Shown here in pieces: positions 18,118 to 27,768 of a stretch of 64,000 nt of DNA. The position numbers and the translations under genes are program-made. The first letter of the stretch is position 1. Each line of letters starts with the position of its first letter. The notes beneath the pieces were generated by a model that worked only from the letters and a program-made list of their open reading frames with translations, did no database searches and was not told where the DNA came from. Source of the DNA: Verrucomicrobiaceae bacterium (GTDB lineage: Bacteria > Verrucomicrobiota > Verrucomicrobiia > Verrucomicrobiales > Verrucomicrobiaceae); NCBI GenBank assembly GCA_019694165.1, contig JAIBCL010000005.1, positions 310,001 through 374,000 of the forward strand, given 5' to 3'.

Positions 18118-18322
18118 GGGTGGACTTGAACGCCGCCGCCGCCGGTGCGTCAAGCGGCATGATTTCCGCGCGTGCGATGCGGCGGGGCTGCCAGCGCACC
18201 ACAAGTGATGCCGGTGAAAGCGCAAGAAATAGACTGGTTTCAATGACGCCCGACGGGATATTGTCGTGGAAATCATCTCCGCCGCGCAGCCGGCGCGGCC
18301 GCCTTACGGTCCTTCTACTCTC

Positions 18323-21300
18323 ATGAACACCCGCACACACTCCACCGCTTCGTGTTTCCCGTTCGTGTTGAAAACCGCCGTGCTCGCCGCTGCGCTGGCG
18401 TGGATGCATCCACCGGCGCGCGGCGAAATCCTCAACGAGGAGATCATCACCACGGACCTCAGCTATCACATCCTGTATTACACCACCGATTCGTCGAACA
18501 CAGACTGGTTCACCTTGGACTCCGACGCGCAAACCATCGCCAGCTTCTACGATCCGGACGGCGCGGGCACGGGCATTCACGAGAACTATGTGAGCCTCGG
18601 CTTCCGCGAGCCGGACTTCGGCGTGTTCGGCTCGCGCGTGCTGCTGCGCACCGCGCCGCTGACCGGCGGACGCTCGAACGCGCTGTTTCCCGACCGCATC
18701 GTGCTGCCGCCGGTGTCGTTGAACGCGATGACCTTCACCGACAAGAAGGAGCTCTGCGCGCACGAGCTGCACCACATCGTCCAGTACCAATATGTGCCGT
18801 GGGGCCTGAACTTCCTCGATCTCTATCCCTTCGGCATCGAGGGCACGGCGACGGCGGCGGAGAACTGCATCTCCGCCGACGTGGATGCGAACACGAACCT
18901 CGACTACAACAACCCGCTCTACCCGACGCTGGTGGACTACTACATGTGGAACGAGTCGGACGACTATCTGTGGACCGGCAGCGGCTATCACTCCGGATTG
19001 TTCTGGACCTACCTGATGGAGCAGTTCGGCTCCGCGCGCACCGAGCCGGGATTCGGCGTCGATGTGCTGCAGCGTTTTTACGAGCTGGCGGACGCGCACC
19101 ACGACGAGGGCGTGACGGACCTCATCGACCGCGTGCTCGGCGAGAAGGATCGCAAGACGACGAGCGCCTTCGACACCGGCGTGGACGTGCGCGAGGTGTT
19201 CCAGGACTTCACCATCGCGAACTGGCTCGCCAGCCGGTCGCCTTTGCTGAGCGTGTCCGATCCGGCCCGCTTCACCTACGTGGACAACATGCCGGCGGCT
19301 GCATCGTCGCCGTCGTCCACCACGCACGGCACGCTGGCAAAGGGAGCGAACACGGGGATGCAGACTTCGAGCGTCGAGCGCTACGCCGCGCGGTATCTGG
19401 AGTGCAATTTCAGTCTGACAGCGCCGAGCGACAGCTACGGCGTGGGCTTCTGGGCGCAGTCGCAGGCTTCGAACAAGAACTGGTTCTCGATCATCGGGAA
19501 GCGGCACTCGGGGCAGATCGACTTCATCCAGAAGAGCAGCGTCCATCCCGACGAGAACAATCCGTTTCAATACGCCGTGATGCAGAGCGCAACGGATCCG
19601 TACGAGACGTTTTACGTCGTGGCGAATGGCGACGAAACGGATTACCCCTCGCTGCTGGCCGATTTTGACTACTACTTCAGCTACTTCCAGCCCACGCTGG
19701 ACATCCAGGAGCCGACCGCCGCGTATCTCGCGTATGTGGGCGATGGCACCGCGCCGGAGCGCTTCCTCGTGCGGCTGCGCGTGACGAGCCCCGACTATCT
19801 CGGCAGCGGTTCGATGAACGGGCTGACGGCTTCGCACTTCACCGTCTATGTCGGATCGACGACGGTCTCGTCGAACCTCGCGCCGGTGCTCAGCGCCGCG
19901 TATGTGCTGGGCGAGTACTGGCTCACCTGCCAGGCGCCGGTGAAATCGCCCGCGCCCGTCGGCGCGCAAAACATCACGGTGCAGCTCGGCGGCGTCTCGG
20001 ACACGGAACAGGAGGCAGTGCTCTACGAACATCTCGAAGTCGATCAGATGATCGTGATCGACCGGTCGGGATCAATGTCCGCCACCTCCGGCGGCGTGCG
20101 CCGCGTGGACGGCGCGCGCGCGGCCGCACAACTCTTTGTCGATACCTCGGGCAGCGACGACCAGATCGGCATCGTGCGCTTCAGCGGCGACGGCACCGAG
20201 CCGGACTCCACGAGCTACGGCGACGGGCAGGTGATGTACTCGCTGCAAAAGATGAACTCGCAGTTCGAACGCGATTTGGTGAATCTCTTGATCGACACGA
20301 CGAATCCCGCCGGCGACGTGCTCACACCAACCGGCAGCACCTCGATCGGCGACGGCCTGTATCACGGAGCGAAGGAGATCGTCGATCACGGCCAGAGCGG
20401 CGCGCAAAAGTGGATCATTCTCCTGTCGGACGGGGTGCAGAACGAGGATTCGAAGTACAGCGACCAAAAGGCGTTCCTCACCGGCCTCGGCGTTCACGTC
20501 GAGACGGTCGCGCTCGGCTCCGGAGCGGACAACGGGCTGCTTCAATCCATCGCGACGGAAACCTCGGGCAAGTATTACGAAGTCGCGGCACCGACCGATC
20601 CGCCCTTCGCTCCGCCCATTGGCAAAGGCGGCGCGCCCGCGAACCTCGGCCCCGGCGGCTCGGGCACGATGCTGATGGAGCTGGCGAACACGTTTCTGGT
20701 GAGCAGTGAGCGCATCCACCGCCGCGAGCGCATTCTCGAAGCCTCCGGCTCGCTCGCCGCGGGCGCCAGCACGAGTCCGACGCTGACGCTGACGGAGGGC
20801 GGGCTGACGGACTGCGTGGTCACGGCGTTCGGCGAGACGTCGGGCAAGATCGGCCTCACCATCACGCGGCCGGATTCCACCACCGTGCCCGCGCCCGATG
20901 CGGGCTACACGAGCACGACGCTGGATCCATCCGGGCACTACTGGGATCCGGGCTACTACGTGAGCTATCGCATCCCGTCGATGACCGACGGCATGTGGAC
21001 GTTCTCCGTTTCAAACAGCGGCACGGCATCGCTGAACTACCTGCTCGTCGTCTCCGGCAAGAACCGCCAGGGCGCGGCCGTGCGGCTGTGCTTTGCGGAG
21101 TATCACGGCAACAGCACACTCTACGCGCAGAACGGCCTCTACCTGCGCGGACTGCCGATGCCCGTCGTAGCGATGATCACCGACGGCACCGGCCCGATCC
21201 GTGGCGCGACGGTGACGGCGGTCGTCACGCATCCGACGCGCGGCCCCGTGACGCTGCGGCTGCGCGACGATGGCAATGGCAATGACGGAGTGGCGAATGA

Positions 21301-22978
21301 CGGCGTTTACTCCGCGATCTACCGGCCGACGACCGAGGCATCCTTCTCCGGCATGAACAACGCCGAAGGCTCGCCCGCCACCGTGAAGCCGAGCTATCAG
21401 GTCACGGTCGTCGCGACCGGCAAGGACAACTTGAGCCGCAACTTCCAGCGCGTGACGCGCGGCTCGTTTCAGGTCTTCGAGACACAGGAAGGGGGCGACA
21501 CCGATGGCGACGGAATGCCCGACCGCTACGAAGCGCTGCACGCCGGAATCAACGCGAGCGTGGCCGATGCGACCGGCGACATCGACGGCGACGGCCTCAC
21601 CAACTTCCAGGAGTACCAGCTCGGCACCGATCCCGCGCGCATCGACACCGACGGCGGCGGCGAGTCCGACTTCTCCGAGAACAGCCGCGGCGGGAATCCC
21701 GTCGATTACACCGACGACTTGATCAAGCAGCCGCTCGTCGCGCGCGTGCTCGACCGCTGGGGCGACCTGCGGCCGCCGGAGGCCGAGACGGCATGGATTC
21801 CAAAGCCGGGGCAGAACATCGTCACCTTCTCCGTCGAGCGCGGCTTTCATGACGTGGAAATCCGCCGCTCGACCAGCGCCAGCGGACCCTTTGCGCTCAT
21901 CACCACGGTGCACGCCGACGTCGATGGCGGCATCTACATCGACACCGGCCTGACGAACGGCACGACGTACTACTACTATGTGCAGCCCCTCGATGCCGCG
22001 GGTCATCGCGGCGCGGCGAGCCGCGTATTCTCCGGCACACCACGTACGGATGTCGATTACCCGTCGGGCACTCTCTCGATCAACGGCGGCAGCCGCTACA
22101 TCACATCGACCACGGTGAACTTGCAGTTCAACGTCTCGCCCGACGTGACGCAGATGAAGATCGGCGGGAGCGCGAACCTTTCCGCGCTGCCGTGGGTCGC
22201 GTTCTCCAGCAGCGTGGCCGGCTGGTCGCTCGGCGCTCCGCCGCCCTCCGGCACGCGGCGCAATGTGTTCGCGCTGGTGCGCGACGCGGCGGGCAATGAG
22301 ACGCTGCTCTCCGCATCCGCGACCTTTGTCGCTCCGGCCGCGGCGGCCACCGTCACCGGCACGGCGGTCACGTCGCTCGATTCAAACAATCGCAACATCA
22401 ACGTGCGGCTCAAGAGCGGTGCATCGGTGAACGAGATTCACACCGGACCGTCCGGCGCGTTCGCGCTGCCCGTGCCCGCCGGCACATGGGACATCAGCAT
22501 CTCGCAGCGCGGCTACCAGCCCTTCTTGTTGAACGGCGTCGTGCTCGCCGCCGCCAGTACGCTCAATCTCGGCACCATCAATCTTACTCCCATCGACAGC
22601 GATGGCGACAGCCTGCTCGACGTGCCCGAACTGCGGACCTACAACACCAACCGCCACCGCCCTGACACCGACGGTGACGGCCAGTCCGATGGCGCGGAGA
22701 TTCTCCTGCTCTTCACCGATCCGCTCGATCCAAACTCGCTCCTGCGCGCCACTGGCACGCCGGTCGTGAACACGAGCGCCGGCACGATCACCATCACCTT
22801 CGCGAGCGTCAGCGGAGTGACCTATGGCTTCGAGACATCCACCGATCTCGCGTCATGGTCCACCGTGATGAGCAGCGGCACGCCGTACAAAGTGACAGCC
22901 ACCGGCCCCGTGACCACGGCCACGCTGGGCTTCACACCAGGCACCTCGAAGTTGTTCGTCCGCATTACTTTCCCGTGA
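18323..22978 (+). CDS. Giant secreted protein: HExxH metalloprotease-like, vWA, calcium-repeat
   Basis: A 1551-residue protein with a signal peptide (about 14-33). The N-terminal part carries HELHH (HExxH, residues 147-151) followed by GIEGTATAAE about 25 residues on, the layout of a zinc metallopeptidase with a glutamate third ligand. A von Willebrand A domain lies at about 573-800 with an intact MIDAS (VIDRSGSMS, TGSTSIGDG, LLSDGVQ). Around 1059-1125 and again near 1425-1460 are Asp-rich calcium repeats of thrombospondin-3/EF type (DTDGDGMPD, DIDGDGLTN, DTDGDGQSD). Between these is a fibronectin III-like part, and the C-terminus (YGFETSTDLASW) matches a tail seen again in the glucoamylase-like protein at 24.3 kb. 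It should be an extracellular or cell-surface adhesin/protease. ATG 18323 gives the signal peptide. Confidence 0.78.
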   Translation: MNTRTHSTASCFPFVLKTAVLAAALAWMHPPARGEILNEEIITTDLSYHILYYTTDSSNTDWFTLDSDAQTIASFYDPDGAGTGIHENYVSLGFREPDFGVFGSRVLLRTAPLTGGRSNALFPDRIVLPPVSLNAMTFTDKKELCAHELHHIVQYQYVPWGLNFLDLYPFGIEGTATAAENCISADVDANTNLDYNNPLYPTLVDYYMWNESDDYLWTGSGYHSGLFWTYLMEQFGSARTEPGFGVDVLQRFYELADAHHDEGVTDLIDRVLGEKDRKTTSAFDTGVDVREVFQDFTIANWLASRSPLLSVSDPARFTYVDNMPAAASSPSSTTHGTLAKGANTGMQTSSVERYAARYLECNFSLTAPSDSYGVGFWAQSQASNKNWFSIIGKRHSGQIDFIQKSSVHPDENNPFQYAVMQSATDPYETFYVVANGDETDYPSLLADFDYYFSYFQPTLDIQEPTAAYLAYVGDGTAPERFLVRLRVTSPDYLGSGSMNGLTASHFTVYVGSTTVSSNLAPVLSAAYVLGEYWLTCQAPVKSPAPVGAQNITVQLGGVSDTEQEAVLYEHLEVDQMIVIDRSGSMSATSGGVRRVDGARAAAQLFVDTSGSDDQIGIVRFSGDGTEPDSTSYGDGQVMYSLQKMNSQFERDLVNLLIDTTNPAGDVLTPTGSTSIGDGLYHGAKEIVDHGQSGAQKWIILLSDGVQNEDSKYSDQKAFLTGLGVHVETVALGSGADNGLLQSIATETSGKYYEVAAPTDPPFAPPIGKGGAPANLGPGGSGTMLMELANTFLVSSERIHRRERILEASGSLAAGASTSPTLTLTEGGLTDCVVTAFGETSGKIGLTITRPDSTTVPAPDAGYTSTTLDPSGHYWDPGYYVSYRIPSMTDGMWTFSVSNSGTASLNYLLVVSGKNRQGAAVRLCFAEYHGNSTLYAQNGLYLRGLPMPVVAMITDGTGPIRGATVTAVVTHPTRGPVTLRLRDDGNGNDGVANDGVYSAIYRPTTEASFSGMNNAEGSPATVKPSYQVTVVATGKDNLSRNFQRVTRGSFQVFETQEGGDTDGDGMPDRYEALHAGINASVADATGDIDGDGLTNFQEYQLGTDPARIDTDGGGESDFSENSRGGNPVDYTDDLIKQPLVARVLDRWGDLRPPEAETAWIPKPGQNIVTFSVERGFHDVEIRRSTSASGPFALITTVHADVDGGIYIDTGLTNGTTYYYYVQPLDAAGHRGAASRVFSGTPRTDVDYPSGTLSINGGSRYITSTTVNLQFNVSPDVTQMKIGGSANLSALPWVAFSSSVAGWSLGAPPPSGTRRNVFALVRDAAGNETLLSASATFVAPAAAATVTGTAVTSLDSNNRNINVRLKSGASVNEIHTGPSGAFALPVPAGTWDISISQRGYQPFLLNGVVLAAASTLNLGTINLTPIDSDGDSLLDVPELRTYNTNRHRPDTDGDGQSDGAEILLLFTDPLDPNSLLRATGTPVVNTSAGTITITFASVSGVTYGFETSTDLASWSTVMSSGTPYKVTATGPVTTATLGFTPGTSKLFVRITFP

Positions 22979-23067: not shown

Positions 23068-23817
23068 ATGAGAAGAACCCCGACCATTCAGGCGTGGCTG
23101 CTCGCCGCCATGCTCGTCTGCTCCGCGCGTGCGGAGGATGCGCCCGCGGTCGATCCTGATCTGCCGCAGCCGTTTGACGAAACCCAGACGCAGGCGCTGA
23201 TCTCGCAGTCGCCCTTCACGCGCACTGTGAATCTCAAAGACTCGCTGCGCCTCACCGGCATCGCCTATGTCGGCGGCAAGCCGGTGGCCACGATGCTGAA
23301 CAAGGAGACGCGGCAGAGCTTCACCGTGTCCGACGAGCCGAACGCCCAGGGCATATGGCTCACGGAGGCCGCCCCGAGCGCTGAGCTCGACGAGAGTATG
23401 GTCACCATCCTGGTCGGTGACGAGACAGTGACCATGCACTACGGAGACGAGCAGCTCAGCCCGGGTGCCGCGAAAAAAGGCGCTCCCACCTCGCATCTCG
23501 CCGGCTCGAAGTCGAAGTCTTCCTCCTCCGGCCACGTTCCGGGACTGGACGGAGGCGGAGAGCATGTGAAGGCCTCTTCGCTGCTCGGCAGCGAGGCGAA
23601 GGCGCTGTACGAAACGCTTTCTTCCTCCATGCGCTCGAGGTTCAAGGACATCATCCACTCCCGCGTGGAGAAGCATCCGGACATGACGCCCGACCAGCTC
23701 TCTGCCTACGCCGAGAAGCTCGTGGCCGGCCTGAAAAAGGCCGAGGACAAATCTGCTGCCGGCGGCTCAAGCGAGAAGGTCAAGAAGTCTGGCAGCAAGC
23801 CATCGAAGCTCAGGTAG
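23068..23817 (+). CDS. Secreted protein of unknown function
   Basis: A 249-residue protein with a signal peptide (about 8-22, IQAWLLAAMLVCSARA). The first half has a small beta-rich segment (LRLTGIAYVGGKPVATMLNK) resembling the fold often used in Verrucomicrobia for type IV pilus or secretion accessory proteins, but not clearly any named family. The middle is low complexity (SKSKSSSSG) and the C-terminus is helical with many Lys residues (VKKSGSKPSKLR). It follows the giant vWA protein by 89 bases on the same strand and may be its partner. Function is not recognised. Confidence 0.65.
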   Translation: MRRTPTIQAWLLAAMLVCSARAEDAPAVDPDLPQPFDETQTQALISQSPFTRTVNLKDSLRLTGIAYVGGKPVATMLNKETRQSFTVSDEPNAQGIWLTEAAPSAELDESMVTILVGDETVTMHYGDEQLSPGAAKKGAPTSHLAGSKSKSSSSGHVPGLDGGGEHVKASSLLGSEAKALYETLSSSMRSRFKDIIHSRVEKHPDMTPDQLSAYAEKLVAGLKKAEDKSAAGGSSEKVKKSGSKPSKLR

Positions 23818-23896
23818 AAGCCCGCCCACATGTTTTGACGGGTGCATCCGTGCGGAGTGGCAGGCTGCGGGGCCGGTGACAAAACTGTTCCAAAAC

Positions 23897-23912
23897 TGGC
23901 ACGGCGCTTGCA
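23897..23912 (+). promoter_or_regulatory. Sigma-54 (RpoN) promoter, perfect consensus match
   Basis: The sequence TGGCACGGCGCTTGCA matches the -24/-12 consensus TGGCACG-N4-TTGCW at every defined base. It lies in the non-coding gap before the DUF2934 gene, in the same direction, and predicts a leader of about 95 bases that contains a small stem (GGGCAT at 23954 with ATGCCC near 23974). Sigma-54 promoters need an activating AAA+ enhancer-binding protein, none of which is encoded in this window. Confidence 0.7.
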
Positions 23913-24019
23913 TTCGAAATGTGCTTCGTGTAAGACGCACGCCCCCTTTTGCCGGGCATCCGTCCTTTGATGGTCATGCCCGCCAAGATCGGGGACAAAA
24001 ACCACACCAAACCCCCGCC

Positions 24020-24259
24020 ATGAATACATTGACCCCAGTACAGGAACAGATCGCCCAGCGCGCCTATCACCTCTATCTCGAAAACGGTTGCCAGCACGGA
24101 CGCGACCTCGACCACTGGCTCGCCGCCGAGAAGGAGATCGGCGGCAAGTTCTTCACGCCGCCGCCGCCCAAGAAGGCAGCCTCAAGAAAAGCCCCGGCAC
24201 CGAAGCCCGCCGTCACGAAGAAAGCCGCCGCGAAGAAGCCGGGGGCGCGCAAGGCGTGA
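24020..24259 (+). CDS. DUF2934 protein with Lys/Ala-rich histone H1-like tail
   Basis: A 79-residue protein. Residues about 8-40 match the DUF2934 pattern (QIAQRAYHLYLENGCQHGRD then LDHWLAAEKEI). The rest is a basic tail of repeated Lys-Ala-Pro units (KKAASRKAPAPKP, KKAAAKKPGARKA) like the C-termini of histone H1 and bacterial H1-like proteins, which suggests nucleic-acid binding. The ATG at 24020 is chosen because the DUF2934 motif begins there and a sigma-54 promoter sits about 100 bases ahead. DUF2934 has no settled function. Expression under sigma-54 suggests production under nitrogen stress or in a special growth state. Confidence 0.75.
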   Translation: MNTLTPVQEQIAQRAYHLYLENGCQHGRDLDHWLAAEKEIGGKFFTPPPPKKAASRKAPAPKPAVTKKAAAKKPGARKA

Positions 24260-24326
24260 CGCACGGAGACTGACCACAGTCTCAGCGCGCGGCTCCTCGC
24301 CCGCAGTCCTTCAGGCCGCCGGCCCA

Positions 24327-25889
24327 TCATCGCTGGATCGACAGCCGCAAGAACTCCCGCACGCCCGAAGGCGTGCCGGACCACGACGCAACGCCCGCCG
24401 CTGAAAAACTCACCGGCCCGGCATCTTGCCACACGACGAGGTCCGCTGAACGCTGAAGGCGTGCCGCGCTGAGCGGCACGCCGCTCCAGTTCGCCTGGAC
24501 GAGCCCCGATGAGATCGTGACCGCATTGAGCTGCGGCGGAAAAATCATCGACAACGCACCGGCGATGCGCGCATCGGCAAAGAGCAGATCATGCACCCGG
24601 CCGCCGGCCAGCAGATTGTCCACCGCCAGAGCCGTCAGGCTGATGTCCTGGCCGATGATGAACCCGCTCGCCGCGAGATGCGGCGACTGCGTGGCCATCA
24701 CGCTTTCGAGCGGCCAGCCGTGCCACTGGAAGAAACCAGGGGTGGTGGCCATGAGTTGCGAGAGCGCCACGGCCAGCGGATTTGCCGCCGGCGTGGATGA
24801 GTAGTACGGCAGCCCGCCGGCCACGCTGTAGATCGTGGCGTCCGAGTAGTTCGCCGCGGGCGCGTCCGGGCTGCTGCGCGGCTTTGCGATGGAACCGGTC
24901 GAGCCATTGAAGAACGCGAAGGTGAGCGAGTCGAGGAAGCCGCGCTCTTTGCGGAAGTATTCCACATGCCCCTGGTAGGACGTGCGGCTCTCGGCGAACC
25001 AATTCACTCCATTGAAATCCGCCGGACACCTGTGCAGGCCGAGCAGCGCGCTGGCGTAAAAGACAGTGAAGGGATCGCCATTCCATGTGGCGTGGCAAAC
25101 GAAGGTCTGCGCGGCAGGCCCGGGCGGGACATAGGTGACGAGATCGCGCCGCCACGCAGTCCACAGCGCCCGCGGATCGAGCGTGATGTCCGATGCGCAG
25201 GCCATCACGTCCAGAAGCAGGGTCTCCTGGCTCCACCAGTCCCACCACCCGGCGAAGCCAGACGCCGGATACCAGGCCATGCGGAACTGATTCAGGTGCC
25301 CCGGCGTGGAAGTGTCGAGCCAGCCCTTCCAGTCGACGAGGTCACGCGCGCTGGTGTAGTCGGTGAGCACGGTGCCGCCGAAGTACTGGGCGCAGGCCGC
25401 CAGTCCGTACATCAGGAGCGCCGTGTCGATGCTGCTCACCTCGGCGCTGCCGTGAAACTCACCGGCGACACCGTCCCAGACGTAGTAGTGAAAGAGCATT
25501 CCCTTGTATCCGTAGAGCGCACGCGCCGCGGGCGTGACCGCCTGGGCGGACTTGGTGATCATCTCCTTGATCCGTGCGGACGCATCAAGTGCGATGGCGG
25601 TGCCCTGGGAAAGTGTGATGACACTCGTCGCCACCGCAGCCGGCAGCGCGGCAAGAGAGAGTCCGCTCGCCGCCAAGTCGATCTCGCCCGTCGGCGAAAA
25701 CGGTGACTGCGCGTACAACCCATGACGGATGGATATGGTGCCCGGGTCATTCGGTGCGCGGCCCGCCGCATAGAAAAGACAGCGCTGCCGCAAGAGGGCC
25801 ATGTCTTCCGGCACGCCGGCTCTGGTTTGAATGAGTGCAAGGCAGAGGGCGACGCCTGCCGCTACGATGGGGTGTCTCGGTAATTTCAT
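24327..25889 (-). CDS. Exported glucoamylase-like glycoside hydrolase
   Basis: A 520-residue protein with a signal peptide (about 6-24, PIVAAGVALCLALIQTRA). Its core matches the glucoamylase-like (alpha/alpha)6 family (PF10091, GH144 and relatives): GMLFHYYVWDG, SSIDTALLMYGLAACAQYF and GFAGWWDWWSQETLLLDVMA are the typical helices. Known members hydrolyse beta-1,2-glucans or related sugars. The C-terminal 80 residues form a small beta domain (ARLQRSADLVVWQDAG) of the type that also ends the giant vWA protein, possibly a surface-attachment or sorting module. The ATG at 25889 is used; another lies two codons upstream (25895). It is divergent from the ABC permease gene. Confidence 0.75.
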   Translation of the reverse strand: MKLPRHPIVAAGVALCLALIQTRAGVPEDMALLRQRCLFYAAGRAPNDPGTISIRHGLYAQSPFSPTGEIDLAASGLSLAALPAAVATSVITLSQGTAIALDASARIKEMITKSAQAVTPAARALYGYKGMLFHYYVWDGVAGEFHGSAEVSSIDTALLMYGLAACAQYFGGTVLTDYTSARDLVDWKGWLDTSTPGHLNQFRMAWYPASGFAGWWDWWSQETLLLDVMACASDITLDPRALWTAWRRDLVTYVPPGPAAQTFVCHATWNGDPFTVFYASALLGLHRCPADFNGVNWFAESRTSYQGHVEYFRKERGFLDSLTFAFFNGSTGSIAKPRSSPDAPAANYSDATIYSVAGGLPYYSSTPAANPLAVALSQLMATTPGFFQWHGWPLESVMATQSPHLAASGFIIGQDISLTALAVDNLLAGGRVHDLLFADARIAGALSMIFPPQLNAVTISSGLVQANWSGVPLSAARLQRSADLVVWQDAGPVSFSAAGVASWSGTPSGVREFLRLSIQR

Positions 25890-26049
25890 GGACATCGGAG
25901 TTGCGTTCTCGATTTGAAGTACGGGGTTCACTACTCGCTTCCATCCCCGGTCCGGTTTGTGCGGCGATGGGTGAAAATTGATGAGTTTTGCTCCCGAAGG
26001 CCCATTCCTTGCATTGCGCGGGCACGGCGCGGCCGTCATCATGGCTCGT

Positions 26050-27768
26050 ATGTCGTCCCAAGCTGGCCATGATCCTCGACGCACCCCGTTCTCCTGGCGG
26101 GACGGAGCAGCGTGGCTGGTGGTTTTTGCGCTCATTTACACGGTGATCAATGTCGCCGACGAATGGCGCGCGCCGCTGCGGCAGAGCGCCGTGATTCATC
26201 TCGAAGCGCGCTATCTGCCCGGCTACACGTTTTACAGCCTGATGCGCGGCATCGCGGCCTACGTCGTGTCGTTTCTCTTCACGATGGTCTATGGCTACAT
26301 GATGGCCCGCGTGCGCGGAGCGAGCCGTGTGATGCTGCCGTTGCTCGACATCCTGCAGAGCATTCCTGTTCTCGGCTTCCTGCCGGGTTTCGTGCTCGCG
26401 CTCGTTCATCTGTTCCCGCATCGAAACGTCGGCCTCGAGATGGCCTCGGTGCTGATGATCTTCACCGGCCAGGTCTGGAACATGACGTTCTCGTTCTACA
26501 ATTCGCTGCGTTCCGTGCCGCAGGATCTCGTGGAAGTCAGCCAGCTCAGCGGCCTCGGCTGGTGGCAGCGTTTCATGTCGCTCGATCTGTCTTACGCCGC
26601 ACCGGGACTCATCTGGAACAGTATGATGTCGATGGCTGGCGGCTGGTTTTTCCTCGCGGTCAGCGAGGCCTTCGTGCTGGGCGATCACGATTTTCGCCTG
26701 CCCGGTGTGGGCGCTTACATGAGCGTGGCCATTGAGCGTGGTGACGGAGAAGCGCAGGTGCTCGGCGTGCTGGCGATGATCATCATGATCGTCGCTCTCG
26801 ATGTCGTCGTCTGGCGTCCAGTCGTCGCTTGGGCACATCGCTTCAGCGATGAACAAGGCCGGCCCGCCACGCTTCTCTTCTCATGGGACTGGTGGGGCCG
26901 CACGCGACTGGCCGCATGGCTTGGCGCATTCGGTCGCAAAACACGACTCTGGATTGCCTCGCTGCCGATCGGCGGAGCGATGCCTGACGTTTTGAAAAGG
27001 CCACGTCGCCCGAGAGGCTGGCGCGCATGGACAGGCCGTGTCTTCATCTGGCTCGTATGGGCGGGCATCATCGCATCCGTCGGCTTTTACATCGATCTCG
27101 TGCAGACGGTGCACTGGTCGCAGTGGCTGGATTTGATCCGCGATACCGCGCTGACCTTTGGTCGCGTGCTGGCCTCTGTCGTGTTCGCCACACTTTGGAC
27201 CGTGCCCGTCGGCGTGTGGATCGGCACGCATAAAAAATGGGCGCGGCGTTTGCAGCCCGTGATTCAAACTGCGGCCAGCTTCCCCGCGCCGATGCTTTAT
27301 CCACTCGTGCTCGGCCTCGCGATAAGCGCGGGCTTCGGCCTCGAGAGCAGCTCCATCGCGCTGCTGCTGCTGGGCACACAATGGTATGTGCTCTTCAACG
27401 TGATCGCCGGCGCATCCGGCATGCCGAATGATCTGCGCGAGGTGTGCTCGCTCGCCACTCTGCGCCGGTCTCGCGTGTGGACTGCCTACATTTTGCCCGC
27501 GATTTTTCCACAGCTCGTCACCGGCTGGATCACCGCGATGGGTGGCGCGTGGAATGCGAGCGTCGTCGCTGAATACCTGCGCTATCAAGGCTGCACGCTG
27601 AGCGCCACGGGGCTCGGCGCGACGATCAGCAAGGCCACCGAGCACGGTGACTTTGCCACGCTCGCCGCCGCCGTGGGGCTCATGTCCGTCTCCGTCGTCG
27701 GCTTCAATCGTCTCGTATGGCGGCCGCTCAGCCGTCTCGCGCAAAACCGTTACGCTGCCCTTCAGTAG
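26050..27768 (+). CDS. ABC transporter permease with two fused membrane domains (NitT/TauT type)
   Basis: A 572-residue inner-membrane protein in which two permease halves of the SsuC/TauC type are fused: first half about residues 18-260, second about 350-570, joined by a charged linker. Each half carries a version of the EAA loop that docks on the ATPase ([40 protein letters not shown]). Such fused permeases form a known subgroup of nitrate/sulfonate/taurine-type importers. The ATPase gene follows after two bases. No substrate-binding protein is next to it, so the substrate cannot be inferred. ATG 26050 is chosen; ATG 26041 is an alternative. Confidence 0.88.

Follow-up and report, generated by a model that had tools for sequence, protein, structure and literature searches.

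A gene for a small, strongly basic protein of the DUF2934 family in a Verrucomicrobiaceae bacterium is preceded by an exact match to the sigma-54 (RpoN) promoter consensus. The best explanation of the locus, to which we assign a probability of about 0.7, is that the match is the genuine promoter of a lineage-specific, stress-linked gene. The features concerned (Table 1) lie within a window of 64,000 nucleotides, i.e. the whole stretch of DNA analysed, which belongs to a genome of 7.8 Mb spread over 66 contigs. In mechanistic terms, RpoN-RNA polymerase would bind the -24/-12 element and remain closed until opened by an enhancer-binding protein of the AAA+ class, for which the two GAFTGA-carrying proteins read in this genome are the likeliest candidates. 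Transcription from near the expected start would then give a short mRNA, probably of this gene alone, with a leader of ca 97 nt. Its 79-aa product would most likely be a small stress-linked accessory able to bind polyanions, comprising a DUF2934 helix pair and a disordered tail rich in Lys, Ala and Pro. Sigma-54 control of this kind would have been acquired in this lineage.

Table 1. Coordinates of the features discussed (window positions unless given as residues or loci).
Feature	Position	Strand	Basis
Sigma-54 (-24/-12) promoter element TGGCACGGCGCTTGCA (TGGCACG-GCGC-TTGCA)	23897..23912	+	Exact fit to TGGCACR-N4-TTGCW
Expected transcription start, inferred	23922..23924 (about 23923)	+	Sigma-54 geometry, 11-13 bases past GC of -12
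Expected 5' leader, stable hairpin	23923..24019	+	RNA fold
DUF2934 gene, 79 aa	24020..24259 (ATG 24020-24022, stop TGA 24257-24259)	+	Pfam PF11154, coding score
DUF2934 domain	residues 8-40, 24041-24139	+	Pfam PF11154, E 9.6e-15
Lys/Ala/Pro C-terminal tail	residues 44-79	+	Composition
Hairpin GAGACTG-ACCA-CAGTCTC, just 3' of the stop, between convergent genes	24266..24283	+	Sequence and fold
hsp20 loci with a sigma-54 site	L310, L295, L294, L296, L298, L312, L299, L314, L300, L315, L302, L303		

As the preliminary description had it, the element agrees with the consensus at every defined position, including the invariant GG and GC, and is read in the direction of the gene. It is also, as had been noticed, the only exact match in the window, where shuffled sequences contain 0.05 on average (5 of 100 shuffles with one). 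Sites with up to two mismatches number six in the window, below the shuffle mean of 8.9, such that only the exact fit is informative. Similarly, the relaxed pattern TGGYAYN5TTGCW occurs 13 times in the genome against 11 for the controls, and relaxed patterns have therefore not been used as evidence for this site. Even the exact match is not in itself significant genome-wide, with four sites as compared to two for the reversed pattern; its location, on the other hand, is. The element sits in the gap downstream of a 249-aa frame ending at 23817, and its end lies 107 bp from the ATG of the DUF2934 gene. This spacing, which the preliminary description had called sensible, is slightly long yet normal for family sites, 58 of which, all facing genes, have a median of 57 bp and quartiles of 36-105 bp. 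The bases directly 5' of the element (AAAAC) are, at most but not all positions, nearer to those of gene-facing than of intragenic sites. The expected start follows from sigma-54 geometry, in which transcripts begin some 11-13 bases beyond the GC of the -12 element. No sigma-70-like promoter was found across 23700-24400.

The importance of location becomes evident from a survey of all 140 exact sites, together with all 68 reversed-pattern sites, in the same 40 genomes of the family. Genes were called with a purpose-built codon model trained on these loci, with which start codons may be off (for amtB at L005 the called start lies 245 bp from the site and a nearer in-frame ATG lies upstream). 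Among the exact sites, 69 point towards a gene start no more than 300 bp away, 38 are intragenic in the same direction, 16 intragenic on the other strand and 17 elsewhere; the respective numbers for the controls are 2, 29, 34 and 3. The gene-facing excess has a Fisher p of 6e-13, a value which is only a guide, since genomes so related do not count as independent. Clustering by sequence sorts the 69 targets into 30 clusters, of which 12 recur (51 sites) and 18, the DUF2934 target among them, are single. From Pfam searches with eight cluster representatives, the commonest recurrent target is the ammonium transporter, with 19 of the 69 sites, followed by Hsp20 (6), RpoN (5) and N-acetylmuramoyl-L-alanine amidase (4); the smaller clusters are a family without a Pfam match (3) and a sigma-70 factor, Hsp70 (dnaK) and an ATP-grasp protein (2 each). 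Since family sites are so placed, and since amtB, hsp20 and rpoN recur as targets, the site before the DUF2934 gene is probably a working promoter. The survey also doubles as a catalogue of RpoN targets with exact consensus sites in Verrucomicrobiaceae-like bacteria.

It could be argued instead that the exact word arose by chance in an intergenic gap, the gene being served by a sigma-70-type promoter or by readthrough. The small genome-wide excess over the reversed pattern, the lack of conservation before other DUF2934 genes and the lack of a clear activator site (both discussed below) are what such an origin would leave behind. Nevertheless, it would put the site in a position that few controls occupy, and a gene served in this way finds no sigma-70-like promoter at hand. 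Moreover, at the control rate ca 1.6 chance sites would be expected to face genes; set against the 18 single targets this is a share of ca 9%, and of 34% at the upper bound. A chance match is accordingly regarded as unlikely.

Two further groups of sites emerged from the survey. Exact sites at L067, L068 and L110 precede a protein of 139-141 aa without a Pfam match that recurs in genus g9. Exact sites also lie 36-133 bp before rpoN itself, at L184 (G012:C1:3562401), L169 (G002:C84:98448), L107 (G007:C17:21075), L158 (G013:C16:89969) and L126 (G009:C5:131507); from these positions rpoN is likely to be autoregulated, as the available text of PMC12316311 already reports for Verrucomicrobiia.

Turning to the product, the 79-aa frame has a coding score of 17.3 in the purpose-built codon model and a PF11154 score of 54.4 bits against a curated cut-off of 22. 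A longer alternative frame with a GTG start (23876-24259) would place the sigma-54 element within coding sequence; homology begins only in the 79-aa form and not in the extension. The tail of 36 residues contains 9 Lys, 2 Arg, 10 Ala and 8 Pro with neither Asp nor Glu, and the whole protein has a pI of 10.1, in keeping with the DUF2934 domain and basic tail originally described. In composition the tail is akin to those of histone H1-like and AlgP-like proteins, although it has only 36 residues and the likeness is one of composition alone; low-complexity tails converge easily. On the basis of this composition the protein may bind DNA or RNA. A single-sequence structure model, of low confidence (mean pLDDT 59), gives helices at residues 6-22 and 26-40 and a disordered tail, and the best hit of a PDB sequence search (E 0.31) is no relevant relative, so that neither fold nor relative adds to the argument from composition. 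Neither the protein nor either of its neighbours has a match in NCBIfam, the upstream 249-aa frame has none in Pfam either, and a comparison with plasmid DNA gave no match. The downstream neighbour (24327-26135, - strand) is convergent; the hairpin in between is a possible transcript end, has no T run and is weak in the sense that 13 of 200 shuffles reach the same stability.

The expected leader folds at -32.9 kcal/mol as compared to -23.9 for its shuffles (z -2.84), with none of 200 shuffles equally stable, and contains no Shine-Dalgarno-like 4-mer. Both features might point to a real promoter whose functional product is, or includes, a structured leader RNA with or ahead of the DUF2934 message. 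Such a reading is highly improbable: Rfam has no family that matches the leader at gathering score, and the frame itself scores as coding and has Pfam homology. Nor is the missing 4-mer special, because 51 of 58 gene-facing leaders in the family likewise have none.

The sigma-54 motif that was looked for before orthologues, as proposed in the preliminary description, did not appear. In this regard, 450 bp upstream of 88 DUF2934 loci, a subset of the matches listed, were scanned; 18 of the 88, 16 of them from the phylum search, were dropped where a small model missed the domain, and removal of duplicates left 66 distinct domains including the present one. With GG and GC kept, none of the 65 others has a site at zero or one mismatch and a single one (L029) has a site at two, the reversed-pattern control giving none in the same regions. 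A basic C-terminal tail occurs in 12 of the 66 domains, and the 11 others so equipped have no sigma-54 site. As far as these upstream regions go, therefore, DUF2934 genes are not in general under sigma-54 control, and the present protein, with a full domain match above the curated cut-off, differs from its relatives in having such a site. Close orthologues, however, are lacking. The best other match to the 79-aa protein among 386 genomes of the order has E 2.1e-8 and 38% identity, a contig scan for close homologues gave a single relative (40% over residues 8-42), a search of one congener gave no DUF2934 gene, and the present gene is the only one found in its own genome. With no close counterparts, and a congener without the gene, the case is one of absent true orthologues, not of orthologues demonstrated to differ.

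The genome contains the machinery that such a promoter needs. RpoN is encoded (Sigma54_DBD, E 9.5e-62), as it is in all 35 genomes searched, this one included. There are nine matches to PF00158, six of which were read: two (L038 and L039) carry GAFTGA, two of response-regulator type (L040 and L041) do not, and L042 and L043 read as Clp-like and Mg-chelatase-like AAA+ proteins, respectively. Three of the four exact sites in the genome face genes, namely hsp20 (L003), DUF2934 (L004) and amtB (L005), and the fourth (L002) is by reading antisense to a polysaccharide-export-like frame, although the gene caller put it in the class of sites neither facing a gene nor intragenic. The recurrence of hsp20 and amtB among the family's targets makes it very likely that sigma-54 functions in this genome and recognises this consensus. 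The suggestion that the gene is made on command of an enhancer-binding protein is supported in so far as RpoN and GAFTGA activators are encoded and exact sites are tied to gene starts; as to an activator site, a search of up to 300 bp upstream found no exact palindrome with 6-bp arms except CGGCCT/AGGCCG at -170. In other words, the locus resembles known sigma-54 promoters in consensus, spacing, intergenic position, direction, RpoN and GAFTGA activators, and differs from them in being known from sequence alone and in having no activator site found. A sharply regulated, apparently monocistronic DUF2934 member together with two clear activators would provide a simple handle on a family without an assigned function.

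As regards the signal, nitrogen limitation or a developmental state had been suggested, neither of which is borne out. Among 126 neighbouring proteins of DUF2934 genes (chosen from 232 listed, mainly from the family and order, with some loci near-duplicates) there are 10 response regulators, 6 Usp, 3 DUF892, 3 CBS, 2 dodecin and 2 Hsp20 domains, as compared to 3 CBS and at most 2 of any other neighbour family in 126 random proteins from 152 control loci, for which 25 families are listed. In Sinorhizobium fredii NGR234 a DUF2934 gene is listed, in the available part of PMC9100948, among induced genes that also comprise CBS, CsbD, ferritin-like and sigma-32 genes; mentions of the family are scarce in the literature searched, those looked at being table entries. 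Together, the neighbours and the NGR234 listing weakly favour stress over nitrogen limitation. A variant of the best explanation, in which the promoter is real and an NtrC-like activator is shared with amtB, would draw on the standing of amtB as the commonest recurrent target and on the presence of amtB among the three genes that exact sites face in this genome. Against this, no link of DUF2934 to nitrogen genes was found, the neighbours are of the kinds just listed, and no activator site is common to L004 and L005 (one motif compared), which leaves nitrogen control unlikely and stress the weakly preferred signal. In genome G038 two hsp20 genes (C82:18696 and 22845; L289 and L307) flank a DUF2934 gene (L018, C82:20534), the span being C82:18696-23150.

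The hsp20 genes were considered in a set of 30 loci among the matches listed in a search of 23 genomes. Thirteen of these are of a type, assigned after the fact, that begins MKL or similar, and 12 of the 13 (L315 among them, from a different family of the same order) have a -24/-12 site at a similar distance (counted at zero to two mismatches, GG and GC kept); two of the remaining 17 loci have such a word, one of them intragenic. In 9 of the 12 a pair of GMGYCA-N3-TGRCKC-like palindromes, 43-45 bp apart, lies upstream, at about -136 and -92 relative to the -24 box. At up to two mismatches the 12 upstream stretches of 300 bp contain 22 matches, as compared to 1.4 after shuffling of bases, a comparison which is partly circular, as the motif was read by eye from the same sequences. 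Similar words occur in two dnaK upstream regions. Judged from these sequences, the sigma-54 promoter is conserved in one hsp20 type of this order, preceded in most cases by paired palindromes, which are likely to be the enhancer-binding-protein site of a heat-shock regulon. In the present genome, hsp20 has only a decayed palindrome copy (-96), the exact motif is no commoner than its control (4 places as compared to 7, and no excess in the window either), and before the DUF2934 gene the nearest approach has three mismatches at -100, equalled there by 7 of 131 unrelated upstream regions. It is tentatively conceivable that this lineage has a sigma-54 stress programme in which Hsp20 and the basic DUF2934 protein are produced together and the latter protects nucleic acid or compacts it; the core of the programme (hsp20, dnaK) would then, in related genera, be under an undescribed enhancer-binding protein that recognises paired palindromes ca 44 bp apart.

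Chaperone genes under sigma-54 have been described elsewhere. A 2025 survey describes, in its available text, sigma-54 enrichment of chaperone genes in Planctomycetota and Bacteroidota (PMC12316311), and the available part of a study of Chlamydia gives hrcA-grpE-dnaK as sigma-54-dependent chaperone genes (PMC8762339). The hsp20 and dnaK genes of the present family are alike in carrying -24/-12 sites. The difference is that the genomes here are Verrucomicrobiaceae-like, and that the regulons in the available text of PMC12316311 and PMC8762339 include no DUF2934 counterpart. That of PMC12316311 also has no statement on Verrucomicrobiota chaperones under sigma-54, and a search for papers on sigma-54 and heat shock in Verrucomicrobiota, judged by titles and abstract openings, returned none. 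Elsewhere in the window, at 18266-22978 (+), a large secreted-looking protein combines metalloprotease-like and CLCA-like stretches with a choice-of-anchor X domain, the last being the only one of its NCBIfam matches above cut-off.
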